A DNA stretch of 36,787 nt. Source: Candidatus Colivicinus equi. Lineage in GTDB: Bacteria; Bacillota_I; Bacilli_A; Erysipelotrichales; Erysipelotrichaceae. Below the pieces are notes generated by a model. The model was given only the letters and a program-made list of their open reading frames with translations, was not told where the DNA came from and made no database searches. The DNA is taken from positions 1 to 36,787 of the forward strand of contig JAGHUL010000037.1 in NCBI GenBank assembly GCA_018064825.1, written 5' to 3'. This document shows, in pieces, positions 4,466 through 33,657 of this stretch. The number at the start of each line of letters is the position of its first letter. Positions within the stretch are counted from its first letter, which is position 1. The position numbers and the translations under genes were made by a program.

Positions 4466-4764
4466 TAGTTTAAATTCTCCGGTTTTGGTTTAAGCGCATC
4501 ATCCAACATCTTCAAAACATTCTTTTTGATAGTTTCGTATTGTTCGTATGTAAGTTCAATATCTTCGTTAGAATTAATGATGAATCCTGGAGAATCAACA
4601 TTATCTAGCATCTGCTTTGTTTCTTCTATTTCCTCATATAATTCACTAGTCATAATCACATACTTACTTGTGCCATCTTCATTCACAAACAAAACATTGT
4701 CTTTATCATTAAGACTTTCTAATTCGTTTTTAATACTTTTTAACTTTTTAATATCAACTATCAT
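4465..4764 (-). CDS. Small Phd/YefM-like protein of unknown function
   Basis: A 99-residue acidic protein. Residues 1-50 read like the Phd/YefM antitoxin fold: a first helix with a segment like KKLKSIKNELESLND, then a short hairpin with VLFVNEDGTSKYVIMTS, then a helix beginning ELYEEIEE. No RelE/Doc-type toxin gene is adjacent; the following gene is tmk. In Bacillus the tmk-holB interval holds yaaQ and yaaR, which this protein does not resemble. Its ATG overlaps the TGA of the preceding gene (ATGA), yet a perfect TATAAT lies exactly six bases before the ATG, inside that gene, so it could also be the first gene of its own leaderless transcript. Function is unknown; the fold similarity is a judgement by eye. 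Confidence 0.75.
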   Translation of the reverse strand: MIVDIKKLKSIKNELESLNDKDNVLFVNEDGTSKYVIMTSELYEEIEETKQMLDNVDSPGFIINSNEDIELTYEQYETIKKNVLKMLDDALKPKPENLN

Positions 4765-5567
4765 ATATTTATTATACTATTTGTCATTTCCGCAATTGTT
4801 GCAAAGAAATCAGGTACAGAAAGAATTTTATCATAACATGAGTCAACGATGTCAAAGAAATCCGTCGCATCTTCTTCGTTAGTATCTAAATCCCATATTC
4901 TTCCTAGATATTCACCATACTTATATTTAGAGATGAATTCTCTCAATACACCTTTAGTTTTCAATTCTTCATCATTCTTTAATAACGTAATCATTAAAAG
5001 GATATACGATTCTATTGAAAGATCGTTATTTTCACAATATAACTTATACATCTCTTTTGCATCTTCCTTCATGTATAAGATATAAAACATTCGATCAGTC
5101 TCTTTATTTGTGCTTATATTAGAAAGTAACATTAATAAGTCTTCTATTTTTTGAGCTTGAGTGTAATTGCCAATATCAATCAAAAATTCAACATACAAAT
5201 CTAATATTTTTAAATAAGCAGCTTTTTCGTTGTCGCTAAGACCTGGATAGTCATCTTTTAATTTGTAATAATATTTGAAATAAGAGTTCGCATATGCTCC
5301 ATCAGAAATCATAGAAATAATAAATACTGCTTCATAACAAAAAACATATTTATCTATGGCTTTATAAGCTCTTTCCTCAATATCTATATGTGAGGAGAAC
5401 AAATATTTAAGAACAAGTTTATATGGAAGTGGGTTGTTTTTGTCGACCTCGTAGTTCTTAGAATTCTTGCTGACAAAGAAATTAGAAAGATATTCAAGAC
5501 GCTTACTCGGTTCAATTCTTATTACCGTATCTACTAGTTTATCGTAACTAATTTTTTCTTTATTCAT
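4761..5567 (-). CDS. Helical protein of unknown function
   Basis: I do not recognise this 268-residue protein. It is soluble (no membrane segment or signal peptide), predicted almost all helical, rich in Tyr, Asp, Glu and Lys, with repeated helix pairs such as YLKILDLYVEFLIDIGNY and YILLMITLLKNDEELK that look like tetratricopeptide-type solenoid repeats without a clean consensus. It starts inside the Nudix gene (8-base overlap) and ends overlapping the Phd-like gene (ATGA), so it is translated in the same operon as tmk and holB. Conserved position next to DNA-replication genes is suggestive only. Confidence 0.8.
   Translation of the reverse strand: MNKEKISYDKLVDTVIRIEPSKRLEYLSNFFVSKNSKNYEVDKNNPLPYKLVLKYLFSSHIDIEERAYKAIDKYVFCYEAVFIISMISDGAYANSYFKYYYKLKDDYPGLSDNEKAAYLKILDLYVEFLIDIGNYTQAQKIEDLLMLLSNISTNKETDRMFYILYMKEDAKEMYKLYCENNDLSIESYILLMITLLKNDEELKTKGVLREFISKYKYGEYLGRIWDLDTNEEDATDFFDIVDSCYDKILSVPDFFATIAEMTNSIINI
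4771..4776 (-). promoter_or_regulatory. TATAAT -10 element six bases before the Phd-like ATG (leaderless candidate)
   Basis: On the minus strand TATAAT, six bases, then ATG (4764). A transcript starting 7 bases after the hexamer would begin at the start codon. It lies in the last codons of the upstream gene. The bases before it (AATAGTATAAT) are the same as those at divIC. No clear -35 is seen. Confidence 0.55.
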
Positions 5568-6075
5568 TCTCTAACCTGTACATCAATGCAATAGTTTTTG
5601 AATCATCAATCTTTCCATCAATTATCATTTGTTTTATTTCTTCTAGGGTATACTCAAAAACATTCAGTCTTTCATCCTCATCTAGATTTTGACCCATATA
5701 TTCATCTGCTTCTCCAGTATATAGATATATTCTTTCCGAACAATATCCACAAGTTGGAATAATGCTGCCAAACTTTCTAACGTTCTTTGCTTTAAAACCT
5801 GTTTCTTCAATTGCTTCTCTTAAAATTGCTTCATCAGGATTCTCGTTTAATTCGATTTTGCCAGCAGGAAATTCTAACATCTCTTTACCCGTCGCATAGC
5901 GATATTGTTTAACCATGAAATACTTATCGCCATGTTTTAAACCGATACATACTCCACCATTATGAAGTACTACTTCTCTGATAGTCTTGCTTCCATCATC
6001 AAGCTCAACTTCGTCCTTTACGACGTGTATAACTTTGCCTTTGTATATTTCTTGTCTACTTATTTGTTTTTCCAT
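5560..6075 (-). CDS. ADP-ribose pyrophosphatase, Nudix family
   Basis: Hydrolyses ADP-ribose (and probably related ADP-sugars) to AMP and ribose 5-phosphate. A perfect Nudix box G-x5-E-x7-REUxEExGU spans residues 72-94 (G72, E78, R86, E87, E90, E91, G93). N-terminal features such as KQYRYATGKEMLEFPAGKI are typical of the NudF type, and the length (171 residues) fits. The start has an AGGGG ribosome site. This is the first gene of a long unit running through tmk, holB and ricT to the rsmI terminator; the divIC terminator lies just upstream. Confidence 0.92.
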   Translation of the reverse strand: MEKQISRQEIYKGKVIHVVKDEVELDDGSKTIREVVLHNGGVCIGLKHGDKYFMVKQYRYATGKEMLEFPAGKIELNENPDEAILREAIEETGFKAKNVRKFGSIIPTCGYCSERIYLYTGEADEYMGQNLDEDERLNVFEYTLEEIKQMIIDGKIDDSKTIALMYRLENE

Positions 6076-6129
6076 ATTTGCCCCTATATATTATTCAAAC
6101 AAAATCTTCATATTCTTATTTTTTTAATC

Positions 6130-6153
6130 AAAAAAGAGATGATTTCATCTCTT
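6130..6153 (-). terminator. Rho-independent terminator after divIC
   Basis: On the minus strand a perfect nine-base-pair stem (AAGAGATGA / TCATCTCTT, tiny loop) is followed by TTTTTT (6130-6135). The upstream arm overlaps the divIC stop codon, so termination is immediate. Confidence 0.9.
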
Positions 6154-6466
6154 AATCTTCATCGGTAGGTAAATAGAATATCTTTTCATCACCCTTTGAG
6201 AACATATACTCGCCTCTAGCGTAAGTTTGTACATAATCTGGATCTTCAAGTTTTTCCTTCGTCGAGATCAATGATGCGTTTTCATCTTTAAGCTTTTGTA
6301 GTTCTTGTTCAACAACTTCAGCTTGTTTTTGTAAGGAGAACACATTGTATACTCTCTTTAATACATTTGCCAATATAACGATAGAAGCGATAATAAACAC
6401 AATTGATACTATCTTAAGGCCAATGTTGTTTTTCTTCTTGTTCTTACTCTTAGTTTTTTTAGTCAT
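6152..6466 (-). CDS. divIC: Septum-formation protein DivIC/FtsB family
   Basis: A 104-residue bitopic membrane protein: a very basic cytoplasmic N-terminus (TKKTKSKNKKKNN), one membrane helix at about residues 16-36, then a leucine-zipper-like coiled coil (about 40-72) and a short C-terminal segment with DPDYVQTYARGEY, the conserved FtsB/DivIC signature. It forms the divisome FtsL-FtsB/DivIC-DivIB complex. It follows rqcP as in Bacillus, where yabP and yabQ lie between; both are missing here, in line with a non-sporulating organism. It has no Shine-Dalgarno site, but TATAAT lies six bases before ATG, and a terminator follows at once, so it seems to be its own transcription unit in addition to any read-through from rqcP. 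Confidence 0.93.
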   Translation of the reverse strand: MTKKTKSKNKKKNNIGLKIVSIVFIIASIVILANVLKRVYNVFSLQKQAEVVEQELQKLKDENASLISTKEKLEDPDYVQTYARGEYMFSKGDEKIFYLPTDED

Positions 6467-6472
6467 ATAAGT

Positions 6473-6478
6473 ATTATA
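6473..6478 (-). promoter_or_regulatory. TATAAT -10 element six bases before divIC ATG (leaderless candidate)
   Basis: TATAAT on the minus strand is followed by six bases and the divIC ATG (6466). The preceding bases are AATAG, as at the Phd-like gene. A poor -35 (TTAAAC, 17 bases upstream, overlapping the rqcP stop region) is possible. Confidence 0.6.
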
Positions 6479-6497
6479 CTATTTTATACCCTTTAGT

Positions 6498-6758
6498 TTA
6501 AGTGCGGTCCTTGTTTTCGCCAACGATACGATACATACCAAAAGCTTCAGCTTTACTAGCAGTTGTCTTTATTTCTAGGACCTCAATAGATATTTCTCTA
6601 TTACCGAAGATTATTCTAACAATATCACCAACGTTAACTTCACTTGATGGTTTTGCGAGTTTTTCATTGATATAAAGTCTATCGTTTAGTGCTAATTCTT
6701 TACCAACTTCTCTTCTTTTTAGGATACGTGATACTTTTAAATATTTATCGATTCTCAT
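6498..6758 (-). CDS. rqcP: RqcP (YabO), S4-domain ribosome quality-control factor
   Basis: An 86-residue S4 RNA-binding domain protein (MRIDKYLKVSRILKRRE at the N-terminus, S4 fold about residues 1-62). In Bacillus subtilis RqcP binds stalled 50S subunits and stabilises the P-site tRNA while RqcH adds alanine tails. Its start overlaps the end of mfd by 14 bases, the same neighbourhood as in Bacillus. The ribosome site is weak (AGAGAA), consistent with translational coupling to mfd. The name rests on the S4 signature, size and position beside mfd and divIC. Confidence 0.9.
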   Translation of the reverse strand: MRIDKYLKVSRILKRREVGKELALNDRLYINEKLAKPSSEVNVGDIVRIIFGNREISIEVLEIKTTASKAEAFGMYRIVGENKDRT

Positions 6759-9700
6759 TTTTCTCTAACTTGTCTAAATTATCCACTAATTTCAGTATTT
6801 TATTAATACTATCAGCTTGATTTGTAATGGATATCTCTAGTTTACTATTTTTATAACCTATATTAATATCTTTTGACAAATTGTTGCAGTACTCAAATAG
6901 TTTTAAACCATCAATATTATCGGAATACTCTTTAGATAAAACTATTCTAAATAATCCGGCTTTATTTGATACTTTTTCGATAAGATTTAGATTACATAGT
7001 AGTTCTAGACGTTTCTTTTCAAATAACGCTTCTACTTGTTTAGGAAGACGTCCATATTCGTCTAGCACTTTTAGATAGTAATTTAACAAATCTTGCTTAG
7101 TGTCTATTTTATCTAGTTCATGATATAGAGTAAGTTTTTCATAATCATTATCTGAGAAGGTTTCTGGAATATATGAAGATATTGGAACATTTACAATATT
7201 CTTTTCTTTTTCTTCTTCGACTTCTTCACCCTTCTTAATCTTTATTGCTTTATTTAACATTGCAAGATATAAATCTAAACCAACATTGTCAATAAAACCA
7301 GATTGTTTTGCGCCTAATAAATCACCTGCGCCACGTATCGTTAAGTCACGCATTGCAATCTTGTATCCTGATCCTAGTGAAGCGAATTCTTTAATTGCTT
7401 CTAGACGTTTTAATGATCCTTCGTTTAATTGTTTTCTCTCTGGTATTAACAAATAAGCATATGCAATCCTATCGGACCTGCCTACCCTACCTTTTATCTG
7501 GTATAGTTGTGACAAACCAAAGTTCTGCGCATTATCAATAATAATCGTATTCGCATTAGGAATATCTAATCCTGTTTCTATTATTGTTGTGCATATTAAA
7601 ACGTTGATTTCATTGTTATAGAACTTATACATGACATCTTCAATTTCTTCTCTTGCCATCTTGCCATGAGCGATGCCAATCTTTGCTTCAGGTAACTTTT
7701 TAGATAGTTTAGATGCAATTGAATATATCAAATCAACATCATTGTATAAATAAAACACTTGACCATTTCTCTCAAGCTCACGCATGATTACTTCTTCGAT
7801 TAGATTTTCAGATTTATGAACAACATATGTTTGAACCGGATAGCGATTACTTGGTGGAGTATCCAAAGTTGATAGACCTCTAACACCAATCAAAGACATC
7901 TGTAAGGTTCTAGGAATTGGTGTTGCGCTTAATGACAGAACATCAATTGAATTCTTCATTACTTTTATTTTTTCTTTGTGTTCTACACCAAATCTTTGTT
8001 CCTCATCTATTATCAATAGGCCTAAATCTTTATACACAACATCTTTAGAAAGAATACGATGCGTGCCAATCAATATATCGACTTTGCCGAGTTTTAAATC
8101 TTCTAATATTTGTTTAACGCCAGCATCAGAAACATATCTATTCAATAATTCAATTCTTACTGGGAAATCCGCAAACCTTTTAATAAAAGTTTCATAATGC
8201 TGTAAAGATAAAACAGTGGTTGGACATAGATACGCAACTTGTTTATTGTCTTTGACAGCCTTGAAGGCAGCGCGTATTGCAACTTCGGTCTTGCCAAAAC
8301 CAACATCACCACAAAGAAGCCTATCCATAGGCTTAGTCATTTCCATATCTTCTTTGACTTCTCTAGTAGCGATTATCTGATCGTTTGTTAGTTCATATTG
8401 GAAAGCATCCTCAAATTCTTTTGTCATTTCATCATCTTTTGAGAAAGCAAATCCAATGTTGGTATCTCTAGCGCTGTATAGCTCAATTAATTTTTCAGCA
8501 ATATCATTAACACTTTCTTCTACACGACGTTTGGTCTCAACCCATTCCTTAGAACCTAACTTATGTAGTTTAGGTACAACGCCTTCTTTAGATACATACT
8601 TTCTTACTAAAGAGAATTGAGATATTGGTACTAATAATTCATCGTTGCCTTTATAAATTATTTTCAAATAATCACAATCGATGCCGTTGATTGTTCTTGT
8701 TTCAATGCATAAATACTGACCAATACCATATTGATCATGCACAACATAATCACCTTTATGTAGTTCTTCATAAGAATTAAGCGTACGTGCTTCCGCATAT
8801 TTAGTAGCGAATTTCCCTTTATGTGGTCTTTGCTTAAATAACTCTTTACTTGAATATACACTTAAATCTAATTTATCAATTTCAAAACCACCATATAAGC
8901 TTCCATATCCTACATTAATTCCCGGATTAATTTTGTCATCATAAATGGAATATGTAATATTCTGTTTAATTAAACTATTAATTACTTCTTCGGTTTGTTT
9001 ATCATCTAAAATTATTAGCTTATATTTACTGCTATCATTGTTCAAGGTATTAAGAACATAATCTATAGGGCCATATGGCAAATCAATCTCACTAATATAT
9101 GAAACATCTTTAAAAGGTTCACCTTTGATTATGCCTTCATTTACACATTCTTGATGGAAATCACTATAAACGTAAAAACGTAGTGGTAATTTCTTTTCTT
9201 CATGCATTTCTTGAATATAAGAAATTGTTTCGTCGTTAAGCATCTTTAAATGTGCTTTAATCTTTTCTTCGTCACTTAAATATAATTCATGATCCTCAAC
9301 ATAATCTTTTAAATGTTCTTTTTTAAAATAACAATAATAAAAATATTGTGATTGACGATATACATCATTGTTAATATATTCGAGATTAAGTTCCATCTCT
9401 CCGGACAAGACTTCTACATTATCATTTAGATATTGTTTTTCCTCTTCGTTAAAGAAAACGTCCTTACCAAAACAAATTGTTACTTCATCAACTTTTTCTA
9501 GTGTTCTTTGTGTATTTACGTCAAAAAACCTAATAGAATCTACAACATCATCGAAGAATTCGATTCTTATTGGAAGTTCATAGTTAACACTATATATGTC
9601 AACGATATATCCTCTTGATGAATAACACATTGGCGTTTCAACGTGGTTCACAAGTTCGTATCCCATTGTTCTTAATTTGCTTGTTAAATCTTCTTTATTT

Positions 9701-10122
9701 AATTCGTCATCTTTTTTGATTGTGATAATGTTTTCTGACAACTCTTTTTTACTAGGTAAATGTCTTATAAAACCATAAGGAGATGTGATAATTATTTTTA
9801 GATTCTTATTGGTTACTATTTGATATAGGGCATTTAATCTTTCGGCACGATTTTCAAATGATGACGCAATCTCTTCAGCACGTAATGATTCTTCGGGCAA
9901 ATAAGTTACAAGTTCATCTTCATCAAAATACGATACCAATATTTCTTTTAAACGACTTGCGAGATAGTTGTTTTCTTTTACAACAATAATTGGTTTATTT
10001 TGGTTCTTTGCTCTAATAGATAGTTTTAGAGCTTCCTCTACTAGACTGTTATAACTTAAAAAAGAATGATTATTATCATTCGCTATGGTTTCAACACTAT
10101 TTAAAAGATTAATATTCTTCAT
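6745..10122 (-). CDS. mfd: Transcription-repair coupling factor
   Basis: Mfd removes stalled RNA polymerase from damaged DNA and recruits UvrA. The 1125-residue protein shows the full architecture: an N-terminal UvrB-homology region (for example ENRAERLNALYQI near residues 90-102), the CarD-like RNA-polymerase interaction domain at about 450-510 (HKGDYVVHDQYGIGQY), the SF2 translocase with Walker A GDVGFGKT at 605-612 and DEEQ at 706-709, the second RecA lobe with a GRVGRSDR motif, the TRG motif region, and the C-terminal autoinhibitory domain. The first base of ATG is shared with the pth stop (TAATG), so it is co-translated with pth. No break or unusual substitution is visible. Confidence 0.98.
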   Translation of the reverse strand: MKNINLLNSVETIANDNNHSFLSYNSLVEEALKLSIRAKNQNKPIIVVKENNYLASRLKEILVSYFDEDELVTYLPEESLRAEEIASSFENRAERLNALYQIVTNKNLKIIITSPYGFIRHLPSKKELSENIITIKKDDELNKEDLTSKLRTMGYELVNHVETPMCYSSRGYIVDIYSVNYELPIRIEFFDDVVDSIRFFDVNTQRTLEKVDEVTICFGKDVFFNEEEKQYLNDNVEVLSGEMELNLEYINNDVYRQSQYFYYCYFKKEHLKDYVEDHELYLSDEEKIKAHLKMLNDETISYIQEMHEEKKLPLRFYVYSDFHQECVNEGIIKGEPFKDVSYISEIDLPYGPIDYVLNTLNNDSSKYKLIILDDKQTEEVINSLIKQNITYSIYDDKINPGINVGYGSLYGGFEIDKLDLSVYSSKELFKQRPHKGKFATKYAEARTLNSYEELHKGDYVVHDQYGIGQYLCIETRTINGIDCDYLKIIYKGNDELLVPISQFSLVRKYVSKEGVVPKLHKLGSKEWVETKRRVEESVNDIAEKLIELYSARDTNIGFAFSKDDEMTKEFEDAFQYELTNDQIIATREVKEDMEMTKPMDRLLCGDVGFGKTEVAIRAAFKAVKDNKQVAYLCPTTVLSLQHYETFIKRFADFPVRIELLNRYVSDAGVKQILEDLKLGKVDILIGTHRILSKDVVYKDLGLLIIDEEQRFGVEHKEKIKVMKNSIDVLSLSATPIPRTLQMSLIGVRGLSTLDTPPSNRYPVQTYVVHKSENLIEEVIMRELERNGQVFYLYNDVDLIYSIASKLSKKLPEAKIGIAHGKMAREEIEDVMYKFYNNEINVLICTTIIETGLDIPNANTIIIDNAQNFGLSQLYQIKGRVGRSDRIAYAYLLIPERKQLNEGSLKRLEAIKEFASLGSGYKIAMRDLTIRGAGDLLGAKQSGFIDNVGLDLYLAMLNKAIKIKKGEEVEEEKEKNIVNVPISSYIPETFSDNDYEKLTLYHELDKIDTKQDLLNYYLKVLDEYGRLPKQVEALFEKKRLELLCNLNLIEKVSNKAGLFRIVLSKEYSDNIDGLKLFEYCNNLSKDINIGYKNSKLEISITNQADSINKILKLVDNLDKLEKNENR

Positions 10123-10676
10123 TAATTAAACTTGTTCATAACATCTTCAAAACTGTTGTCTAAAGCATATAACAAAGCATTCTTTGCTTTTATTGCGCCA
10201 GCTTCGAATGATTCTAATTCTTCTTTTGAAAATCTGCTCAACACATAATCTTTAGTATCGATTAGTTTATTGTTTGATATGCCAATCCTAATGCGATTGA
10301 TATCTTTCGTTCCTGTTAAATCTATGATGTTGCGCATTCCGTTTTGACCGCCACATGATCCTGAATGTCTTAATCTTAATTTACCCACAGGCAAATCTAA
10401 ATCATCATGAACCACGATTACATCTTTAATATCAATATCATAAAACTTCATCAAAGAGATTACTGCCTCTCCTGACAAGTTCATATATGTTTGTGGTTTA
10501 GCGATAATCACCTTTTCACCATTATGTCTAAAGACTGTATATTTTGCTTTGCATTTGCTTTTATCTAATTCCAGATTTAGTTCTTTAAGCAAAAGATCAA
10601 TAATATGAAAACCAGCGTTGTGACGCGTCTTTTCATATTCAGTCCCTGGATTTCCTAAACCAACTATAAGTTTCAT
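10122..10676 (-). CDS. pth: Peptidyl-tRNA hydrolase
   Basis: Pth recycles peptidyl-tRNA released during abortive translation. Catalytic and tRNA-binding residues are visible: N9 in GLGNPG, H19 in TRHNAGF, N66 in YMNLSG, D91 in HDDLDLP and the GGQNGMRN loop. The length of 184 residues is standard. AGAGGAAT precedes the ATG, and the start overlaps the upstream stop by one base. pth-mfd-rqcP is the conserved Bacillota order. Confidence 0.96.
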   Translation of the reverse strand: MKLIVGLGNPGTEYEKTRHNAGFHIIDLLLKELNLELDKSKCKAKYTVFRHNGEKVIIAKPQTYMNLSGEAVISLMKFYDIDIKDVIVVHDDLDLPVGKLRLRHSGSCGGQNGMRNIIDLTGTKDINRIRIGISNNKLIDTKDYVLSRFSKEELESFEAGAIKAKNALLYALDNSFEDVMNKFN

Positions 10677-11449
10677 TATTCCTCTTCTTGTTTATCACTT
10701 GATAGGTCAATACTTTCAAAAGTTTTGATATATGAATCGTATAAACCTAATTCAATCATATATTGCTTACCGATATATGATTCTGTAAAAATCTTCAAAT
10801 CTTCTTTATCATAATCAGAAATGTTTTCAGCTAAATATAACAATGTGCAAGCTGCAAATCTCTTATATATTCCAATGAATCTCTTTTCATATCTTAGTTT
10901 AGTGTATTCGCCATTTAACAACATGTTAAGAAATTCTACACCAGAATCCTCTAGTTTAGCTAAAGCTTTATAGATTGCTGCAGCAAGTTGATATTCAACA
11001 AGGACACCAAGTTCATCTTGGTATACACAAAGTTTTTTCATCAACTTTTCTAACAAATCAGTTCTGCCAACTCTTTTAGCTCTCGCAAGACACATAATAA
11101 ACCAAACAAAAGCATCAGCGTTTGTTAAAGCTTTTACAATCATAAAAGAGCCTTTATCTTCAAAAATCTCTTTAAAAGATAGTTCGTTAAATGTATCGTC
11201 TACTTTTTCAGGATATTTATCTAATTCAATATATAACTTGAAAAGCATTGCTTTATTTTTTAACATTTCTGATTTTTCATTATTAAGATATCCAACAATA
11301 TCATCATATGCACAATCACCTTGTTCTTTAACTTTATTGAAGCAATCAACATAACCCTTAGTTTGGCGATATTGTTTTATTGTTTGAATATTCTTAATTG
11401 TCATGTAGATAACAATCGCAAATGTTACTAATAATAGAATTAAATTCAT
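10676..11449 (-). CDS. Membrane-anchored helical protein of unknown function
   Basis: Not recognised. The 257-residue protein has one N-terminal membrane helix (about residues 2-18, followed by a basic stretch), then a soluble, mostly helical cytoplasmic or extracytoplasmic domain rich in Leu, Lys and Glu, without Cys or His motifs that would suggest an enzyme; helix pairs look like degenerate tetratricopeptide repeats (for example LLEKLMKKLCVYQDELG). An acidic tail (SDKQEEE) ends it. It has a good GGAG ribosome site and lies between tatD (12 bases) and pth (1-base overlap), so it is part of the mnmE-tatD-pth-mfd operon. Confidence 0.8.
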   Translation of the reverse strand: MNLILLLVTFAIVIYMTIKNIQTIKQYRQTKGYVDCFNKVKEQGDCAYDDIVGYLNNEKSEMLKNKAMLFKLYIELDKYPEKVDDTFNELSFKEIFEDKGSFMIVKALTNADAFVWFIMCLARAKRVGRTDLLEKLMKKLCVYQDELGVLVEYQLAAAIYKALAKLEDSGVEFLNMLLNGEYTKLRYEKRFIGIYKRFAACTLLYLAENISDYDKEDLKIFTESYIGKQYMIELGLYDSYIKTFESIDLSSDKQEEE

Positions 11450-11461
11450 ATTTTTTCTCCT

Positions 11462-15962: not shown

Positions 15963-16013
15963 GTTTTACCTCAACTACTATCTTAATTTTACCTTAATGA
16001 TTAGGAAATTGTA

Positions 16014-16041: not shown

Positions 16042-16062
16042 TGTAGTAGGAGGTAATTACAT

Positions 16063-16740: not shown

Positions 16741-16762
16741 TTATCTAATAACTAAAATGCTC

Positions 16763-16800: not shown

Positions 16801-16801
16801 A

Positions 16802-17326: not shown

Positions 17327-17328
17327 CG

Positions 17329-18969: not shown

Positions 18970-18979
18970 ACATACCACC

Positions 18980-19330: not shown

Positions 19331-20562
19331 TCGATTACCTCCCAGTGAAGATTACCATCCAAATCGTCTAATTCTTCTTTTTTAATCATAACTTTCTGCA
19401 TCTCGCTAGGCACAATACCTAATTTATTAATGTATTTATCTATACCATCTCCATAGATATGAATCTTGCATTGTTTAAATACTCTATTAACTCTAAAACT
19501 GAATTCGATATCTTTACCTAAATGGAAATATTGAGGAACAATATATGATACACCATTTTCTAATACATTATTATGTTTTGCTGAAATGGTGCTGTTTCCG
19601 TTTATATAATCAGCGGCAGCCTGACCACATTTCTTTCCTTCTATCGAAACATAGTCTACTAAATCATGTACATGCAAAGCATTTCCACACGCAAAGATTC
19701 CTTCAACTGAAGTCATATACGTTTCATCAACAATCGCACCTTTAGTCTTCTTATCTAGCTCAACGCCTAAATCTTCTACTAAAGTATTTTCAGGAATTAG
19801 ACCGATTGATAATAACAGGCAATCACATTCAATTTCTTGTTCAGAGCCAGCTATCTTTTGTAATTTCTCATCAACCTCAATCAAAGTAATTGATTGTAAT
19901 CTTCCTTTGCCATGAATTGATTCAACAGTATGTGATAAATATAGTGGAATATCGAAATCTTCAAGACATTGTTTAATATTTCTAGCTAAACCATTTGAAT
20001 AAGGCTGCAATTCTGCAACACCAATTACTTTAGCGCCTTCCAAAGTCATTCGTCTAGCCATTATTAAGCCAATGTCTCCAGAACCTAAAATAAAGACTTT
20101 TTTGCCAACTAAGAATCCTTCTTTATTCAAATATCTTTGAGCAGTGCCAGCTGTATAGACACCCTCGCATCTATCTCCCTTTAAACCAATGGCACCAGCT
20201 GGTCTTTCACGACAACCAGTTGCTAAAACAATTGCTTTTGCTTCAATTCCAATTAAGCCATCATTGCATTGTATTGTCACGATTTTATCTTTAATCTCTA
20301 TGACGGCTGCGTTGTACATAAAATTGATGCCTTCTTTATCTTTGATTAAGGCATAATATTTTTCGGCATATGCAGGCCCAGATAATTCTTCATTGAATGT
20401 ATGCAAACCAAAGCCATTATGAATACATTGTTGCAAGATTCCACCATATTCAAAGTCTCTTTCAACAACCAAGATATCTTTAACACCGTGTTCATAAGCG
20501 CCTAATGCTGCAGCAATACCAGCACTTCCACCGCCAATAATAATTAAATCAGTTTTACGCAT
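19327..20562 (-). CDS. FAD/NAD-dependent oxidoreductase, GlpB-like or thioredoxin-reductase-like subunit
   Basis: A 411-residue pyridine-nucleotide-disulphide-oxidoreductase-fold protein. The FAD-binding GGGSAGIAAA is near the N-terminus, and the second dinucleotide motif LGSGDIG lies near residue 153. The cysteine pair in the active site of thioredoxin reductases is not seen in the usual position, so it more likely passes electrons between FAD, NAD(P)H and the partner subunits. I choose the ATG at 20562 over the GTG at 20565 because AAGGAGG is spaced 7 bases from it. It lies between the GlpA-like gene and DUF1667; the three form one functional unit. Confidence 0.9.
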   Translation of the reverse strand: MRKTDLIIIGGGSAGIAAALGAYEHGVKDILVVERDFEYGGILQQCIHNGFGLHTFNEELSGPAYAEKYYALIKDKEGINFMYNAAVIEIKDKIVTIQCNDGLIGIEAKAIVLATGCRERPAGAIGLKGDRCEGVYTAGTAQRYLNKEGFLVGKKVFILGSGDIGLIMARRMTLEGAKVIGVAELQPYSNGLARNIKQCLEDFDIPLYLSHTVESIHGKGRLQSITLIEVDEKLQKIAGSEQEIECDCLLLSIGLIPENTLVEDLGVELDKKTKGAIVDETYMTSVEGIFACGNALHVHDLVDYVSIEGKKCGQAAADYINGNSTISAKHNNVLENGVSYIVPQYFHLGKDIEFSFRVNRVFKQCKIHIYGDGIDKYINKLGIVPSEMQKVMIKKEELDDLDGNLHWEVIE

Positions 20563-21983
20563 CACAAATCCTCCTTTGCATAAGCAGTGAATATTTGCGA
20601 ATTGTTTTTATCTAATTTAACTTCTTCTAATTTTTTATCTAATTGTTTTTGTATTATTTTTACAACTTCAGGCTCACAGAAACCGCCTTGGCACCTTCCC
20701 ATTCCAGGACGGCATCTCATTTTGACACCCTTAATTGTAGTTGCACCACATTCACGATTTATTACGTCTTTTATTTCGCCAAGTGAAACTTTCTCACAAC
20801 GACATATTAATTTTCCAAAATCAGGATCTTTATGAATTAAATCGTTTTTTTCTTCTTTACTCATTTTTGCCATATTAATATATGGTTTTCTTTTTATATA
20901 TTTCTGTTTTAGTGCTACAGAAAACTTAGGAAGAATCATGTTCTCTACAACATCTTTCGCAATCGCAGGAGCTGCGCTAATGCCAGGCGATTCAATTCCT
21001 GCTACATGAATAAAGCCTTTTATTTCGTCATCTTCTTGAATATAAAAATCATTCAAATCAATATGTGGACGATTGCCCGCAAAAGTATGAATCATTTTAT
21101 TGAATGGAACATTTTTAATTGTCTTAGATAATTCTCTTTTTACATAATCTAAACCTGTTCCAGTTGCTACATCATCTTTGTCTTCGACAAAATCACTGTT
21201 AGGACCTAACAAAATATTGTGATGAACTGTTGGTACAGCTAAAACACCCTTGCCCTTGGCAGTTGGAACTGGATAGATGACATGATGAACTAATTGTTCA
21301 CCAGTATGATCCAAGACATAGTATTCTCCCTTTTTTGTTTCAACTTTGTATGGAGATACTCTTAATAGATTGGTAATGTCATCACAATGACTTCCTGCAC
21401 AATTGACAATAACTTTTGTTTTTATTTCATCATTTATTAAGAAATAATCATCTTTTTTATTTATTTGATTTACTTCATAATTTAGTCTTAGTTGAACATT
21501 GTTCAACATGCTTTCTTCCATTGCGGCCATTGTTACCAACCAAGGCGTTACTACAGCGGTTGTAGGAAGAGATAATGCTTTAGTGATGTTGTCGGATAAG
21601 TTTGGTTCGTTAACTCGTGCTTGTTCACCTGTTAATACCTCATAAGGAACTTCTCTTTCAATACATTGCTTCACAAGTACATCGATTTTTTGTTCTTCTT
21701 CTAAACTTGTTGCCACAACATAAGCACCGATCTGATCAAAATCAACTTGTAAATCAGCACATACATCTTTGTACATTCTGTTTCCTAATAGATTATATTT
21801 ACATTTTAATGTTCCAGGCTTTGGATCGTGCCCTGAATGAACCATTGCACTATTAGCGCCTGTTGCACCTAGAGCCACATCATTTTCTTTTTCCAAGACT
21901 AAAACATTCAAATTAAATTTGCTTAATTTGTGCGCAATCAACGCGCCACAGATACCTGCGCCAATTATCGTAACATCGATCAT
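20562..21983 (-). CDS. GlpA/GlpO-like FAD dehydrogenase with BFD [2Fe-2S] domain
   Basis: A 473-residue protein. Residues 1-380 form a DAO-type FAD domain (IGAGICGALIAHKL at the N-terminus, TGANSAMVHSGHDP following), the rest is a BFD-like [2Fe-2S] domain with Cys in LICRCEKVS and in CRPGMGRCQGGFC. This is the arrangement of the anaerobic glycerol-3-phosphate dehydrogenase A subunit: oxidation of glycerol 3-phosphate (or a related 2-hydroxy acid) with electrons to a second subunit. No glpK or glpF is in the window. The start has no good ribosome site (TTAAGGT), but TATAAT lies six bases before ATG. It overlaps the next gene, so the operon is GlpA-like, FAD/NAD oxidoreductase, DUF1667, argS, lipoprotein. 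Confidence 0.9.
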   Translation of the reverse strand: MIDVTIIGAGICGALIAHKLSKFNLNVLVLEKENDVALGATGANSAMVHSGHDPKPGTLKCKYNLLGNRMYKDVCADLQVDFDQIGAYVVATSLEEEQKIDVLVKQCIEREVPYEVLTGEQARVNEPNLSDNITKALSLPTTAVVTPWLVTMAAMEESMLNNVQLRLNYEVNQINKKDDYFLINDEIKTKVIVNCAGSHCDDITNLLRVSPYKVETKKGEYYVLDHTGEQLVHHVIYPVPTAKGKGVLAVPTVHHNILLGPNSDFVEDKDDVATGTGLDYVKRELSKTIKNVPFNKMIHTFAGNRPHIDLNDFYIQEDDEIKGFIHVAGIESPGISAAPAIAKDVVENMILPKFSVALKQKYIKRKPYINMAKMSKEEKNDLIHKDPDFGKLICRCEKVSLGEIKDVINRECGATTIKGVKMRCRPGMGRCQGGFCEPEVVKIIQKQLDKKLEEVKLDKNNSQIFTAYAKEDL

Positions 21984-21989
21984 ACCTTA

Positions 21990-21995
21990 ATTATA
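21990..21995 (-). promoter_or_regulatory. TATAAT -10 element six bases before the GlpA-like ATG (leaderless candidate)
   Basis: TATAAT on the minus strand is followed by TAAGGT and ATG (21983). The upstream terminator for the STAS gene ends 6 bases before it, so an independent promoter is needed here. No -35 is visible. Confidence 0.6.
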
Positions 21996-22000
21996 CAATA

Positions 22001-22029
22001 CAAAAAGAATAAGCCATTAGGCTTATTCT
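22001..22029 (-). terminator. Rho-independent terminator after the STAS gene
   Basis: A perfect 10-bp stem (AGAATAAGCC / GGCTTATTCT) with a four-base loop, followed on the minus strand by TTTTT. It lies 54 bases after the STAS stop. Confidence 0.92.
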
Positions 22030-22083
22030 TACACGCTCATCAATACATAAATAATTGCTATTATTTACTGAAGATGCATTAAT

Positions 22084-23921: not shown

Positions 23922-23938
23922 TTTTTTACCTTTACCTA

Positions 23939-23944
23939 ATTATA
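23939..23944 (-). promoter_or_regulatory. Candidate -10 element of the SpoIIE-type phosphatase gene
   Basis: TATAAT on the minus strand, 17 bases before the ATG, with AAAGG between. This gives a short leader of about 11 bases, unlike the six-base spacing at the leaderless candidates. The -35 is weak. Confidence 0.5.
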
Positions 23945-23965
23945 CAGGAAAAGTTGACTATTTTC

Positions 23966-24733
23966 TTACAACTCGAAACTAGTTGATACTCCCACTTGTT
24001 TAATTTTGCAAACCTTACTCAAAGCAATCTTGCTATATAAATCTGTGCAATGGCACGGGCATACAACATTTACATGTTGTTTGGTAAAATATTCACAAAC
24101 TTCTTTAGTAACTTCTTCGTTATTTAGTAGATGGAATCCGCCGATAACGATATTAATATTTTCACATTTGCTAATCTTTTTTGCTTGTTCAACAATGTTG
24201 CATATTCCCGAATGGCTGCAACCTGTGATAATACTTATCGAATCATCACTCTGATAAAGGATGGCACTATCATCATATAATGGATCATCACCCAATTTTC
24301 TTAATGGTTGAATGCCTCTAACGATTTGGCCTAGGAAAGTTAAATGTTCGCTAATCTTTTGACTATCTTTGCTGATATGTAACTTAAAGTTATTTGGAAG
24401 GTCATTTAGTTTAATTGGGCTAGATATGTCTTTGCCATTATGCTCTTTATGTTCGTCGACATTTGGACAACAATATACATCGATATCTTGTTTTAATTCT
24501 TGTAGATATACTAGACCTCCAGTATGATCGTTATGGCCATGTGATAAAACTATGGTATTTATCTTTGTTAAATCAATATTCATCTTTTTAGCATTTCTAA
24601 CAATCACATCAGAATAACCTGTATCAAAAAGAATCTTTTTATTGCCATCTTCTAAAAAAAAAGACAAACCAGGCTCTGCAAGATAGTAATAGTCTATTAG
24701 ACTATTGTTGTCGACAATAACAGTAAGTTTCAT
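23966..24733 (-). CDS. Metallo-beta-lactamase-fold hydrolase
   Basis: A 255-residue MBL-fold protein with the metal motif HGHNDH (H65, H67, D69, H70), plus CSHSG and GFH elements as in the family annotated as dihydropterin (ribofuranosyl)aminobenzene phosphate synthase-like proteins of bacteria and archaea. The extra CPCHCTD near residue 235 is unusual. The substrate is unknown; names in this branch are not supported by biochemistry in bacteria. It overlaps the adenosine deaminase stop by one base. Confidence 0.88.
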   Translation of the reverse strand: MKLTVIVDNNSLIDYYYLAEPGLSFFLEDGNKKILFDTGYSDVIVRNAKKMNIDLTKINTIVLSHGHNDHTGGLVYLQELKQDIDVYCCPNVDEHKEHNGKDISSPIKLNDLPNNFKLHISKDSQKISEHLTFLGQIVRGIQPLRKLGDDPLYDDSAILYQSDDSISIITGCSHSGICNIVEQAKKISKCENINIVIGGFHLLNNEEVTKEVCEYFTKQHVNVVCPCHCTDLYSKIALSKVCKIKQVGVSTSFEL

Positions 24734-25725
24734 TAAAAATCTAATTGTTTCCTTAATTCTATTTTTTCTTCGTTAGAAATAAATGCTGCATCAATTGCAT
24801 TTAGAGTACATTGTTGTAATTGTTTTTCACTAACACCGATTAATTCTAACATTGAATATTCATGCAATAAATCTGCTTTAGAGAAAATAATGTTATCAGT
24901 ATTAATTGTTACTTTTGCACCAGCTTTGATTAATTGCCTAATTGGATGTTTAGTATAATCGTCATCAAAAGCTTTTAAATTTGATGATACACAAACCTCT
25001 AGTGGGATTTGACTATCAACTACAGCTTTTAGATATGCAGGATCTTGAACACAATTTATACCATGACCAATACGATATGGTTTCATTGCTAAGGCATCCA
25101 TAATATGTGAACCAATTCCCATTTCTGCAGCATGGATAGTATATGGAATATTCTTTGCTCTAGCTATTTCAAATAGATTTCCATAATCTTTGAAATCGCA
25201 ATTATTTTCATAGCCAGCTAAATCTATAGCAACAGCTCCATCATTTAGATATTCTTCTGTAGCTAAGATTGTATCAACGTTTTCTTGGTAGTTAAATGCT
25301 GCACTATCACCTTTATGCATCATGCAGTTAATAATGCCGATTTTGATTGGATATTTTTGGCACGCAGCTTTTGCACCATCGATTACGGCTTTTAATGCTT
25401 GTTTTTGACTTAAGCCCTGTAAGCAATGTTGTTGCGAAGCAAAACGAATCTCGGCATATATCAAGCCTCTTTTTGCTAATAGTTCAACAAGATTATATGT
25501 AGCTTCATATAAATCTTCTTCATATTGCAAAGCTTTACACAATAAATCAAACTTCAAAAAATTCTTAGCAGAATGTTCTTTATTTTTTGAATACAAAATG
25601 TCATAGAAATCTTCAAAAGAAGTTGTAGTATCCAATACTTTCCTTTGAAGCAATTTCTCATATGCCCATTTGATATTTAATGAGCCATCTAGATGTAAAT
25701 GTAATTCTACTTTTGCAGCATTCAT
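24733..25725 (-). CDS. add: Adenosine deaminase
   Basis: Converts (deoxy)adenosine to (deoxy)inosine in purine salvage. All zinc ligands are in place: H9 and H11 in HLHLDG, H198 in IHAAE, D277 in INTDN, with E201 as the proton donor and H221 in IGHG. The second Asp of the classical TDD motif is Asn here, which is common in the bacterial branch. Length (330 residues) is normal. GAGGGGG lies 10 bases before ATG, and the gene follows the M28 peptidase after 3 bases. Confidence 0.94.
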   Translation of the reverse strand: MNAAKVELHLHLDGSLNIKWAYEKLLQRKVLDTTTSFEDFYDILYSKNKEHSAKNFLKFDLLCKALQYEEDLYEATYNLVELLAKRGLIYAEIRFASQQHCLQGLSQKQALKAVIDGAKAACQKYPIKIGIINCMMHKGDSAAFNYQENVDTILATEEYLNDGAVAIDLAGYENNCDFKDYGNLFEIARAKNIPYTIHAAEMGIGSHIMDALAMKPYRIGHGINCVQDPAYLKAVVDSQIPLEVCVSSNLKAFDDDYTKHPIRQLIKAGAKVTINTDNIIFSKADLLHEYSMLELIGVSEKQLQQCTLNAIDAAFISNEEKIELRKQLDF

Positions 25726-25728
25726 ATT

Positions 25729-26952
25729 CTATTTCCCCCTCTTTCTAAATAGATATATATCTAGTCTTTCCTTCATGTTATCTGGAATTGTTCTTTCAAT
25801 TGGAATCCTTTTTGCATTAACCATGTTAGATACAAATTCTTCTATGAATTGATAGTCATCATTAAAAGAATCTTTGTTCATAAGGAACATCGTATCAAAA
25901 CAACAATGAATAGGTGTTGCTGGATTGCCCTGGCCAAAACTTACTGCTGGAATTCCATTATCCGCAAATGGCGTAGAATCACTAGAATAAACATCTTGAT
26001 AACAATGACATGCTTTACCTTTTATGCTTGATAAATAATCAATATAACCAACCATCTTTTCTTCACCAGTTACACAAGCTAAGAACTTACCAATAGTTGC
26101 GCCAATCATATCAAGATTGATACATAAATCATATTTATCTAATTCTTTTTTATGCTTCTTAACATATGCCTTTGAGCCACATAATCCTCTTTCTTCAGCA
26201 CCACACCAAATGAAAGTCATATTATGAAGTGGCTCATTCTTGCTAAAGTGCTCTGCCAACTTTAATAGGCCGACGCTTCCTGAGGCGTTATCCCACGATC
26301 CTTTGGATAAAGCGGTTGAATCATAATGAGCAGTTAAAACAACATGGCGTTTACTTCTTCCTTTGATATGCGCTACAACATTTTGGCTTGAGCCAACAAA
26401 AGCTTTTTGAACTGTTGTCATTTTTATTTGGCTTACACCTTTGCTTGCCATTTCATATAGGTCTTTTATGTTACATGAAACAATTGGAAGTTTACCAAGC
26501 TCTTGTAATTTTTCACGAAGTTCTCTTGTATCAATATCGTTGTCTTCAGCAAAAAGATGGCCATCGCCTAATACAATGCCTTTACATCCTGCTTCTATTA
26601 ATTCTTTATATTTCCAATATCTAATTCTTCCTTGTAGAAGAACTATCTTATTTTCAACATCATATTTTCTTAATTCGTTGATGTCTTTTACAAAAACGAC
26701 ATCTTTAACTAAATTTGTTGCATTACCTGCTAGCTTATAAAAATTGCAGGCATATTTCTTCTTATATGGTTTTGTTACTTCTAATGAGACTTTTTCTAAT
26801 TCTGAATTATTAAGTTTAAACTTTTCTAATGTGCTTTCGATTCCAATTTTCTTTAATGTTGTTTGAATATACTTTGCAGCTTTCAATTCTTCTTTGGAAC
26901 CCCAAGTTCTTGTATATTCTAATTCTTTTAGTATTTGCATCTCATCTAACAT
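25729..26952 (-). CDS. M28-family zinc aminopeptidase with a PA-like domain
   Basis: A 407-residue cytoplasmic protein (no signal peptide). The peptidase half begins about residue 190. Zinc and catalytic residues: H209 in TAHYDS, D221 in DNASG, E253/E254 in GAEERGL, D281 in NLDMIG and H349 in PIHCCFDT. A protease-associated-like domain spans about 75-185. M28 members cleave N-terminal residues from peptides. Ribosome site AAGGGG is strong. Next to adenosine deaminase and the MBL protein it may be part of a salvage or nutrient-recycling group, but the link is only positional. Confidence 0.9.
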   Translation of the reverse strand: MLDEMQILKELEYTRTWGSKEELKAAKYIQTTLKKIGIESTLEKFKLNNSELEKVSLEVTKPYKKKYACNFYKLAGNATNLVKDVVFVKDINELRKYDVENKIVLLQGRIRYWKYKELIEAGCKGIVLGDGHLFAEDNDIDTRELREKLQELGKLPIVSCNIKDLYEMASKGVSQIKMTTVQKAFVGSSQNVVAHIKGRSKRHVVLTAHYDSTALSKGSWDNASGSVGLLKLAEHFSKNEPLHNMTFIWCGAEERGLCGSKAYVKKHKKELDKYDLCINLDMIGATIGKFLACVTGEEKMVGYIDYLSSIKGKACHCYQDVYSSDSTPFADNGIPAVSFGQGNPATPIHCCFDTMFLMNKDSFNDDYQFIEEFVSNMVNAKRIPIERTIPDNMKERLDIYLFRKRGK

Positions 26953-26963
26953 ATTCTTTCCCC

Positions 26964-27809
26964 TTATGCGTTTAATAGATTATACAATGTTTCATCGTTG
27001 TTAGTTACTATAAATTTTAATTTTATTGTTTTTGGACATATCTTGGCAAAATAATGTCTATATAACCTTGCTTGTCCTAGTAAAGATTTAATATCAGTGT
27101 CTTTATCAACATAGAACATAATCGTAAGTTCATCGTCTCTTAATTCATAGATTTCATTACGGCAATTATGAACAAACTCGTAGTCAGTATTTTCTACATA
27201 TGCTTTTAAAAACTTATACGCTTTTTTATTGGCCTTAGTATCTTTAATCTTAGAATGAATCACATTTAAAGAATATAGAACTTCTTCTTTATCAATTTCT
27301 TCATCATCAAAACTTGCCCATAAGTCTTTACTAGTCTTAGCAAGTTCTAATAATTTAATGACAACCTCTTCTGGTTTTAAATAAATATATGATTCAACGT
27401 TAGTAGAAATGGTAACACCACATTCACTTAAATAAACTGGTTGGAAGAAACAAACATCTTCTAAATAAAAACTAGAGATCTTCTTTGGAAGTTGTTTATC
27501 TTTAGAGACTTTTAATAGAGCTTCTTTGAAATCCTCAAAAGAATTGTAGCCATTTAAAATGCCGTATTTATTCCACATCGTCTTAGCACTACTAACATCG
27601 ATGTTTTTTAGTTTGCCAAAACCGACAATTCCTTTTTCTTTACCCTTTAAATGTTGTTTATCTTTCGACAAGAAAAAGACTAGATCACCAATACTGAATT
27701 CTGAGAAGTTTACATTATTAGACAGTCTCCAAAAGTTCATCGTCTTGTGATTATTCAAACGATGAAGTTGTAACATTCTCGAATCAGTAATGTAGGCGAT
27801 ACTACTCAT
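26964..27809 (-). CDS. PUA/EVE-like domain protein next to recR, unknown function
   Basis: A 281-residue protein. The N-terminal ~150 residues resemble the PUA-like domain found before HNH nucleases in some restriction proteins: NFWR at 25-28, GDLVFF at 41-46, IVGFG at 61-65, a segment like TMWNKYGILNGYNSFEDFK and a CFFQPVYLSE strand. Here no HNH follows; instead a C-terminal part contains DDELTIMFYVDKDTD and LLGQARLYRHYF, an arrangement like the QXXXY helix of PD-(D/E)XK nucleases but without an ExK pair, so any nuclease activity may be lost. It overlaps the recR stop by 4 bases (ATGA), so it is in the dnaX-recR operon. PUA/EVE domains often read modified bases; that role here is inference. 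Confidence 0.7.
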   Translation of the reverse strand: MSSIAYITDSRMLQLHRLNNHKTMNFWRLSNNVNFSEFSIGDLVFFLSKDKQHLKGKEKGIVGFGKLKNIDVSSAKTMWNKYGILNGYNSFEDFKEALLKVSKDKQLPKKISSFYLEDVCFFQPVYLSECGVTISTNVESYIYLKPEEVVIKLLELAKTSKDLWASFDDEEIDKEEVLYSLNVIHSKIKDTKANKKAYKFLKAYVENTDYEFVHNCRNEIYELRDDELTIMFYVDKDTDIKSLLGQARLYRHYFAKICPKTIKLKFIVTNNDETLYNLLNA

Positions 27810-28399
27810 TCTTCTATCTTTCTTCTGTTATCAAATGCTTTTATTAACGTTAAATCATCAGCGTAATCGAGTGATGATCCCATCGGTAAGCCATGTGCCA
27901 ATCTTGTTACAAGAACATTTTTATCTGCCAATAATTTATTTAAGTATAATGACGTCATCTCACCATCCATTGTTGGAGATGTAGCAATTATTACTTCTTT
28001 TACTTCATCGTTAATTCTATGCATCAAAGCTTCAATATTGATGTCTTCAGGATATATTCCTTTTGAAGAAGAGATTAATCCATTTAAGATATGATATAAA
28101 CCATGATAACCATTTGTCTTTTCAATTGCGACAGCTTCTTGAGGATAGCCGACAACCATAATAGTTGATCTATCACGATGTTCATCCTTACAGATTTCAC
28201 ATTCATCTTCATCACTCAAGAATCCACATACTTTACATTTTTTAATGTTCTTTACATTTAATAAATCTTGAACGATTAGGTTTATTTCATCATCGTTTTT
28301 TTCTAACAAACTAAAAGCATAACGTTGTGCAGTTTTGTAACCAACGCCTGGTAGCTTTTCAAATAAAGTGATTAGTTCTTCAAATTTTGCAGGATACAT
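27806..28399 (-). CDS. recR: Recombination mediator protein RecR
   Basis: RecR with RecO and RecF loads RecA at gaps. The 197-residue protein has the helix-hairpin-helix start (LPGVGYKTAQRYAF), the C4 zinc module (C55, C58, C67, C70) and the Toprim domain (RSTIMVVGYPQEAVAIE and ATSPTMDGEMTSLYL). Its ATG shares one base with the dnaX stop. The ebfC/yaaK gene usually between dnaX and recR is missing. Confidence 0.97.
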   Translation of the reverse strand: MYPAKFEELITLFEKLPGVGYKTAQRYAFSLLEKNDDEINLIVQDLLNVKNIKKCKVCGFLSDEDECEICKDEHRDRSTIMVVGYPQEAVAIEKTNGYHGLYHILNGLISSSKGIYPEDINIEALMHRINDEVKEVIIATSPTMDGEMTSLYLNKLLADKNVLVTRLAHGLPMGSSLDYADDLTLIKAFDNRRKIEE

Positions 28400-30045
28400 T
28401 ATTCTTCAATCTTTAAGTTATCGCCAAATAGTTCTCTTAATTTTTCTTCTTTTGTTTTTTCTTTTGGTGCTAATTGATATTTCTCAACATATACTGGTTT
28501 ATTTCTTTCGCTAATAGGAGTGGCTTTGTATCTAGTGATTAACTTGTCTTTTTGTTCATTAGTTATCGCATAGATCATCTTATCAATACCAAATTCCTCG
28601 TTAACGAATTTATATAATTCTTTATTATTGTTTTCTTCATTAATGCTATCAACTTGTTTCTTATCGCCGACGACAATCATTGCATCCTTACTTGAAGCAA
28701 GTAATTCTGTGCCAATTAATAGTTGATAGAACTTTCTCTTCTCAGGTTCGTATAGATATAAATCTAATTTATTGTAGATAATCAAATCTGCTATTCTTAA
28801 ATCTCTATTAGCAGCCAATAATAGTTTTAAGATAAAGTCTTGATCAATTTCGTTTGTTTTGATTTCAACTTCTTCAACTACTGGTTTTGTCTCTTCAACT
28901 TTGACTTCTTGTTTTTCTTCTTTAATTTCTTTTACTTCTTGAACTTCTTTGTATTCAACATTCTTGGCAGTTTTAATATTTGCCATATTAATTAAACACA
29001 TTTCAAAATAAACCAAGAAATTTTGATTTTGTCTTTCTTTAGATATTACATCTTCTAAATTATTTGCGTCTTGTAATAGTCCAGGAATAGAAACATTTCT
29101 TAATATTTCTTGAGCTTCTATTGGACTAATCTTATTTAACAATCTATCGTTTGCGCTGTCAGAGTATATCAAAGCTTCTTTTACAATCTCTAATAAATCA
29201 ACTGCAAGTTTCTTGGTATCCATGCCTTGTTCATACATTGCTCTTAAAGTTGATATTGTTTCAGCGATTTGTTGTTGATGAATCTTGACTAGTAAATCAA
29301 CTTCAACTTCTGTAGAGGTTAGACCAAAGATATGTTCAACATCTTCAAGTCTCAATTCTGCATCATTATATGAAAGACATTGCTCAAGAATTGATAAAGC
29401 ATCTCTCATTCCACCTTCAGCCATTCTTGCGATTTGACCTACTGCTTTTTCATCATATGGAATTGCTTCTTTATCTAGAATTTCCATCATTCTTTTTTTG
29501 ATTTCAAAAGTTGTAATCTTTGAGAAATTGTATCTTTGGCATCTAGATAAAACAGTTGGAATAACTTTTTGTGGATCGGTTGTAGCTAAGATAAATATAA
29601 CGTGTGATGGTGGTTCCTCTAGTGTTTTTAATAATGCATTAAAAGCAGAGGTTGAAAGCATGTGAACCTCATCGATAATATATACTTTATATTTACCTAA
29701 CATTGGTGCATAAGGCACTTGTTCAATAATCTGTCTAATATCTTCTACTGAGTTATTACTAGCAGCATCTAGTTCAATAATATCAGGATGATTATTTTCT
29801 AAGAAAGCTTTACAATTTGGGCATTCATCACAAGCTTCATCATTAAAATTCTCACAATTTATAGCCTTACCAAAAAGTTTTGCGACACTAGTTTTGCCTG
29901 TTCCACGAGGACCCGCAAACAAATAAGCATGCGCAATCTTATCTTTTTTGATAGCGTTTAATAATGTTTTGATGATATAGTCTTGTCCAACTACTTCTGA
30001 GAACTTGCTTGGACGATATGTACGATATAATACTTGGTATCCCAT
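28399..30045 (-). CDS. dnaX: DNA polymerase III gamma/tau subunit
   Basis: Clamp-loader ATPase. Walker A GPRGTGKTS (45-53), zinc-module cysteines C64, C72, C75 and C78, Walker B DEVHM (about 127-131) and the SRCQR sensor near 170 are all present. The C-terminal tail (about 370-400) is a charged Glu/Lys linker before a short tau-like domain. The 548-residue length is typical of Bacillota. No ribosome site precedes the ATG; TATAAT lies six bases before it, so the mRNA is probably leaderless. It heads the dnaX-recR-PUA protein-M28 unit. Confidence 0.97.
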   Translation of the reverse strand: MGYQVLYRTYRPSKFSEVVGQDYIIKTLLNAIKKDKIAHAYLFAGPRGTGKTSVAKLFGKAINCENFNDEACDECPNCKAFLENNHPDIIELDAASNNSVEDIRQIIEQVPYAPMLGKYKVYIIDEVHMLSTSAFNALLKTLEEPPSHVIFILATTDPQKVIPTVLSRCQRYNFSKITTFEIKKRMMEILDKEAIPYDEKAVGQIARMAEGGMRDALSILEQCLSYNDAELRLEDVEHIFGLTSTEVEVDLLVKIHQQQIAETISTLRAMYEQGMDTKKLAVDLLEIVKEALIYSDSANDRLLNKISPIEAQEILRNVSIPGLLQDANNLEDVISKERQNQNFLVYFEMCLINMANIKTAKNVEYKEVQEVKEIKEEKQEVKVEETKPVVEEVEIKTNEIDQDFILKLLLAANRDLRIADLIIYNKLDLYLYEPEKRKFYQLLIGTELLASSKDAMIVVGDKKQVDSINEENNNKELYKFVNEEFGIDKMIYAITNEQKDKLITRYKATPISERNKPVYVEKYQLAPKEKTKEEKLRELFGDNLKIEE

Positions 30046-30051
30046 GAGACT

Positions 30052-30057
30052 ATTATA
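30052..30057 (-). promoter_or_regulatory. TATAAT -10 element six bases before dnaX ATG (leaderless candidate)
   Basis: On the minus strand ATGCTATAAT (extended -10 form, TGC before TATAAT), then six bases and the dnaX ATG (30045). It lies in the 26-base gap after tadA. Confidence 0.68.
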
Positions 30058-33648: not shown

Positions 33649-33657
33649 AGATACTGT

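Follow-up and report, generated by a model that had tools for sequence, protein, structure and literature searches.

We analyzed a stretch of 36,787 nucleotides (nt) from Candidatus Colivicinus equi (assembly GCA_018064825.1, contig JAGHUL010000037.1, positions 1 to 36,787 of the forward strand; hereafter the window), in which four minus-strand genes begin exactly six bases downstream of a TATAAT hexamer. Throughout, k denotes the number of bases that separate such a −10-like box from the start codon. The four genes encode a protein of 99 amino acids (aa; gene 4465–4764, TATAAT-N6-ATG at 4762..4776), DivIC (6152–6466, site at 6464..6478), a GlpA-like FAD-dependent oxidoreductase with a BFD-like domain (20562–21983, site at 21981..21995), and DnaX (28399–30045, site at 30043..30057). 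The product of divIC matches the Pfam DivIC family, and the 99-aa protein, termed Phd-like in an initial annotation of the window, has no Pfam match. That annotation had listed these four sites and predicted leaderless mRNAs from them; all four are present, and neither strand of the window carries a fifth. As it had also stated, a Shine-Dalgarno site is missing, since none of AGGA, GGAG, or GAGG occurs at the expected position before any of the four ATGs, each of which opens a called gene. A weaker candidate on the plus strand, TAAAAT-N9-ATG (33643..33660), was likewise found as described before a 464-aa open reading frame (ORF; 33658–35052) earlier assigned to MATE, for which a near-leaderless start or a short leader is possible.

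Counted only at gene starts, TATAAT at k = 6 is remarkable in this window: among its 40 called genes, the exact hexamer lies at k = 6 in four cases, compared with three at all other spacings from 0 to 39 combined. We then counted the spacing against shuffled upstream regions, as the initial annotation had proposed, in a host-genome sample consisting of the window and 20 further stretches (373,900 bases), together 411 kilobases (kb) or 24% of the 1,693,028 bases of the genome. Genes (n = 382) were called with a simple codon-usage caller made for this analysis, which ignores upstream signals, and a box was defined as TATAAT, allowing for a single change within positions 3–5. Such a box lies at k = 6 in 34 of the 382 genes (20 with exact TATAAT), compared with 3 genes at k = 5 and 7 at k = 7, a clear excess over mononucleotide-shuffled upstream regions (mean of 4.7 and maximum of 12 genes at k = 6 in 500 shuffles). 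The peak remains when longest-ORF starts are used (27 genes). A Shine-Dalgarno 4-mer is found in none of the 34 k = 6 genes and in 2 of the 58 genes with a box at k = 6–9; the box sits where a Shine-Dalgarno site would be. At the 78 divergent gene heads of the sample, a box occurs at k = 6 in 18 and at k = 6–9 in 28, and a Shine-Dalgarno match in 25. A reversed-pattern control had looked very strong (85 versus 41 in G000, 64 versus 0 in G022); it was not used as proof because TATAAT and ATG are both frequent near gene starts and the spacing spectrum without gene anchoring is noisy. We replaced it with gene-anchored counts and with k = 9 as a control spacing of the same phase.

The sequence around the k = 6 box was analyzed in the same sample. 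All 34 k = 6 genes have T or C directly before the start codon, compared with 194 of the 348 other genes (p = 1e-8), which fits transcription from the A of ATG; pooling the k = 6 genes of five genomes of the genus gave a pyrimidine at −1 in 57/57. Also enriched are T at −15 (p = 1e-6) and TG at −15/−14 (p = 2e-5), in the style of an extended −10. With regard to gene arrangement, k = 6 genes are over-represented at divergent heads (18/34, p = 2e-5) and under-represented in tight operons (5/34, p = 4e-4).

In the window, each of the four genes had been taken to head a transcription unit. This part of the annotation is well supported only for the GlpA-like gene, close upstream of which lies a minus-strand terminator-like hairpin (22005..22030; z −4.84) that ends 9 nt before the TATAAT, with a T-tract between the two. 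It is not supported for the 99-aa gene, divIC, and dnaX, whose TATAAT sites may be internal promoters: divIC and dnaX lie 31 and 26 base pairs (bp) downstream of same-strand genes, no terminator-like site was found upstream of dnaX, and folding, the only approach used for divIC, revealed no clear hairpin there. Among the other same-strand k = 6 genes that were folded (gaps of 15–120 bp), a hairpin with its T-tract immediately precedes the box in 3/7. A terminator-like hairpin and T-tract of the preceding gene abut the −10 box of the next, putatively leaderless gene at 22005–22030 of the window and in three further stretches (L039, L045, and L049).

The upstream regions of relatives, which the initial annotation had suggested comparing, show that the layout is conserved, with a shift in the GlpA-like gene. 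A search with DnaX returned matches in all 61 genomes, and loci were cut for the best 30; as one of these (L023) begins inside the gene, 29 readable loci of the genus remained, including the window's own. The matches in two genus genomes (G010 and G035) are weak and thus probably represent paralogs. In all 29 readable loci among these best 30, TATAAT-N6-ATG is exact and a pyrimidine (T or C) precedes the ATG, even though most of the loci differ from one another farther upstream; the DnaX start codon is fixed by an N-terminus conserved from residue 3. For divIC, 16 of 17 genus relatives have the box at k = 6 (14 with ATG, two with GTG) and one at k = 9, with a pyrimidine before the start in every case; TATAAT was found in none of three outgroup stretches. 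The two GTG starts (L273 and L278) come from two species and keep the box at exactly k = 6. Upstream of the 99-aa gene, TATAAT is present in 18/18 loci including our own, at k = 6 in 13, k = 7 in one, and k = 9 in four.

The named records of the genus are six metagenome-assembled genomes (MAGs), five labeled Erysipelotrichaceae bacterium and one Solobacterium sp. UBA1789, and the isolate names of three of them refer to water buffalo or goat gut. Gene-anchored counts at k = 6 were 9/225, 5/132, 4/131, and 5/127 in four genomes of the genus (G012, G001, G003, and G028), and 9/82, 4/110, 2/65, and 2/60 in genomes of other genera of the same family (G156, G149, G195, and G202). The two sampled genomes of a neighboring family show no k = 6 peak (G038, 2/294; G042, 0/83), and other families gave 3/59 (G198), 3/68 (G066), 1/89 (G103), 1/29 (G203), and 0/11 (G187). 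In the small samples of G198 (L212–L215) and G066 (L222–L225), which belong to a more distant family (f8), the base preceding the start is a pyrimidine in every k = 6 gene. We additionally counted k = 6 against k = 9 across whole genomes, requiring a pyrimidine before ATG, in 159 genomes of the class. The resulting ratio was 682:262 for the own family, represented by 14 genomes, and 4096:3253 for the remaining 145 genomes; nine of the 159 passed the k = 6 to k = 9 test at p < 0.001, seven of them from the own family. Among 80 dnaX loci from named records, the box lies at k = 6 in all six of the genus. Of the 74 loci from outside it, 63 are readable at the start (in ten of the remaining 11 the match begins after residue 1, and L138 is cut), and a TA-NNN-T box at k = 6 precedes the start codon in only one of these (L100). 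In dnaX of five other uncultured Bacilli MAGs (L117, L124, L126, L131, and L135), TATAAT lies 7–12 nt upstream and no Shine-Dalgarno 4-mer was found, which suggests very short leaders beyond the own family. We also considered whether loss of ribosomal protein bS21 had enabled the trait and rejected this idea, since a bS21 match was found in the host genome, in 14/14 genomes of the own family, and in 145/159 overall.

The layout also occurs back to back. Both starts have a box at k = 6 in 3 of the 39 divergent gene pairs of the host sample, whose intergenic gaps measure 22, 35, and 68 bp; the 22-bp element (L042:3045–3072, G000:C87) contains a palindromic ATTGTACAAT core between the genes for guanylate kinase and an RlmA-like methyltransferase. 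Of the 36 genus genomes, 28 contain the pattern CAT-N6-ATTNTANAAT-N6-ATG, at 38 places in total; it is missing from G036 (the only other genome of the same family in this set) and occurs at one place in 24 genomes of the neighboring family, and its reversed form is absent from the genus genomes. With a spacing of 7, the counts are two places in the genus and three in the neighboring family, and one of the two in the genus (G004:C53) is the stretch upstream of a GlpA-like gene. A draw of 296 genomes of the class gave 23 genomes with the pattern, of which 21 (21 places) lie outside the genus, four of these in the own family. The pyrimidine-purine signature is present at both ends in 37/38 places of the genus versus 3/21 outside it. 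The core equals ATTATATAAT in 33/38 genus places, and in 20 of the 21 genus places that were read (of 38), neither ORF is interrupted within 100 codons. Judged by N-terminal sequence, these 21 places comprise nine pairs of a HIGH-nucleotidyltransferase with a partner lacking a Pfam match, three of PfkB with a Mur ligase, three of UDG with a partner lacking a Pfam match, two of guanylate kinase with the RlmA-like protein, and four single cases. The Pfam assignments come from 10/42 proteins, namely those of one example per recurring pair (four pairs) and of one single case; the partner of UDG we take to be FolC-like.

What is directly observed is where the box lies, how it is spaced and conserved, and that a pyrimidine-purine step marks the predicted start. 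Together with the sharpness of the peak at k = 6 and the missing Shine-Dalgarno sites, these observations support the leaderless reading of the initial annotation, and we estimate a probability of roughly 0.9 that leaderless or nearly leaderless mRNAs are made throughout the genus and in part of its family of Erysipelotrichaceae-labeled MAGs from the gut. According to this reading, TATAAT would serve as the −10 in promoters of the housekeeping-sigma type, in many cases extended by a T or TG directly upstream, and transcription would begin at the A of the start codon or 1–3 nt before it. The resulting mRNA would have neither a leader nor a Shine-Dalgarno site, and translation would start via direct recognition of the 5′-terminal AUG, by likeness to known leaderless mRNAs; we infer both the 5′ ends and this route of translation from the DNA sequence.

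Several observations weigh against this reading. Dinucleotide-shuffled windows contain 1.99 ± 1.32 copies of bare TATAAT-N6-ATG per shuffle and 13/100 contain at least four, so that the bare count in the window is unremarkable and the earlier estimate of well under one chance case is wrong for the bare string. Without gene anchoring, the spacing spectrum of the host sample has no clean peak (21 at k = 6, 22 at k = 28, and 20 at k = 16). A search for a −35 element upstream of the k = 6 genes gave no clear signal, with matches of at least 4/6 in 13/34 versus 101/348 of the other genes at the same place. Among the k = 6 genes, 16/34 are preceded by a same-strand gene, and at its start (4764) the 99-aa gene overlaps with the stop codon of the ORF that precedes it on the same strand (gap −4), so that its TATAAT, if a promoter, would be an internal one. 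Relatives of the GlpA-like gene lack TATAAT in 5/20 stretches; for the 15 with a box, the spacing to the first ATG is 7 in ten, 4 in three, 9 in one, and 23 in one, and the ten stretches at k = 7 have A or G directly before the ATG, which would give a 1-nt leader. Two other genera of the own family show no k = 6 peak (G107, 0/97; G124, 0/86), and the remaining two genomes that pass the k = 6 to k = 9 test, G114 and G200, belong to other families. At one back-to-back place (L316), one side holds only a 6-codon ORF. Finally, the genomes of the genus are related, and ortholog counts are therefore not independent events.

The alternative that fares best is that the promoters are real but the transcription start in use leaves a leader of ~4–10 nt, so that translation is not truly leaderless. 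Some orthologs do have the box at k = 7–9, and start choice at such promoters shifts by a base or two. We nevertheless consider such leaders improbable, as the peak is sharp at 6, all 34 genes have a pyrimidine at −1, and the conserved N-terminus leaves no freedom in the DnaX start codon. It is more doubtful still, to the point of being very unlikely, that TATAAT at −12 is not a promoter but, on a longer leader, serves translation as an A/U-rich, Kozak-like, or S1-binding signal. The k = 6 genes without Shine-Dalgarno matches would suit such a signal, and the available part of one report describes Kozak-like start contexts in Bacteroidetes, which lack Shine-Dalgarno sites (PMC6847099). Against a translation signal stand the enrichment of the box at divergent heads and its depletion in tight operons, the extended −10 bases, and the pyrimidine-purine step at the predicted +1; moreover, with only 22 bp between back-to-back starts, any longer leader would need to originate within the gene on the other side. 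That the pattern arose by chance from high AT content, for which the shuffled windows and the noisy ungated spectrum might speak, is hardly credible in view of the gene-anchored excess and of orthologs that keep the layout while the DNA further upstream mostly differs.

Applied to diverging genes, the leaderless reading would have both use the palindromic ATTATATAAT-type core as their −10, with 22 bp of intergenic DNA between them. We lean towards the view that the 22-bp element is one palindromic −10 driving two divergent genes, with both transcripts starting exactly on AUG, and, as part of the same judgment, that different species have retained this layout, or evolved it anew, for the gene pairs that recur; the shared core would then be active in both directions. 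If this is true, the paired genes would be coupled by competition, because polymerase sits in one orientation at a time. Bidirectional promoters are recognized by a symmetric −10 with starts 7–25 bp apart on opposite strands, and the predicted start separation here is 23 bp, at the 38 places in 28/36 genus genomes. As far as the available parts of the relevant papers go, promoters of this kind likewise share one symmetric −10 (PMC10268837, PMC12825309), and 23 bp is among their common start distances (18, 10, and 23 bp; PMC12825309). Unlike in those reports, both predicted starts coincide here with start codons, so that the whole intergenic region comprises 22 bp and both mRNAs would be leaderless. 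The back-to-back shared element looks like an extension of the leaderless layout that appears new; we found no report of leaderless starts in this lineage or of shared 22-bp elements in a literature search of partial coverage, which is weak evidence.

Leaderless transcription from a −10 placed for a start at the start codon is known from Deinococcus, an unrelated, mostly high-GC lineage. The same placement is described for Actinobacteria, again unrelated and mostly high in GC (PMC9581028, in the part available, as for the papers that follow). The remark in the initial annotation that leaderless translation is not usual in Bacillota needs correction, as leaderless genes are already known in the phylum from predictions in Firmicutes genomes and from mapping in streptococci. 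On the basis of TA-like signals, they were predicted in 56/209 Firmicutes genomes, with a concentration in Lactobacillales and Mycoplasma and a mean share of 4.2% of genes, a maximum of 16.6%, and an average of 18.3% for five Mycoplasma genomes (Zheng et al. 2011, PMC3160421). Those predictions resemble ours in a −10 box ~12 nt before the start, its TATAAT form, and a TG peak in low-GC genomes, and differ in that our 34/382 genes (8.9%) are those at k = 6 alone, obtained by a different method (PMC3160421). In streptococci, differential RNA-seq mapping found 8.6–9% of mRNAs to be leaderless (PMC6431027). These, too, are Bacillota with about 9% of mRNAs and strong conservation between species, but they were mapped by experiment, whereas our predictions are sequence-based and concern another order-level lineage (PMC6431027).

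With this analysis, the known cases are joined by an uncultured Bacillota lineage. At the divergent gene heads of the host sample, leaderless or near-leaderless starts seem to be roughly as frequent as Shine-Dalgarno sites (28 versus 25 of 78). Gene finders that expect Shine-Dalgarno sites may therefore misplace starts in this lineage. As compact natural test cases, the 22-bp elements could show how two genes divide polymerase at a single symmetric −10 and whether a promoter working in both directions is able to supply a pair of leaderless mRNAs.

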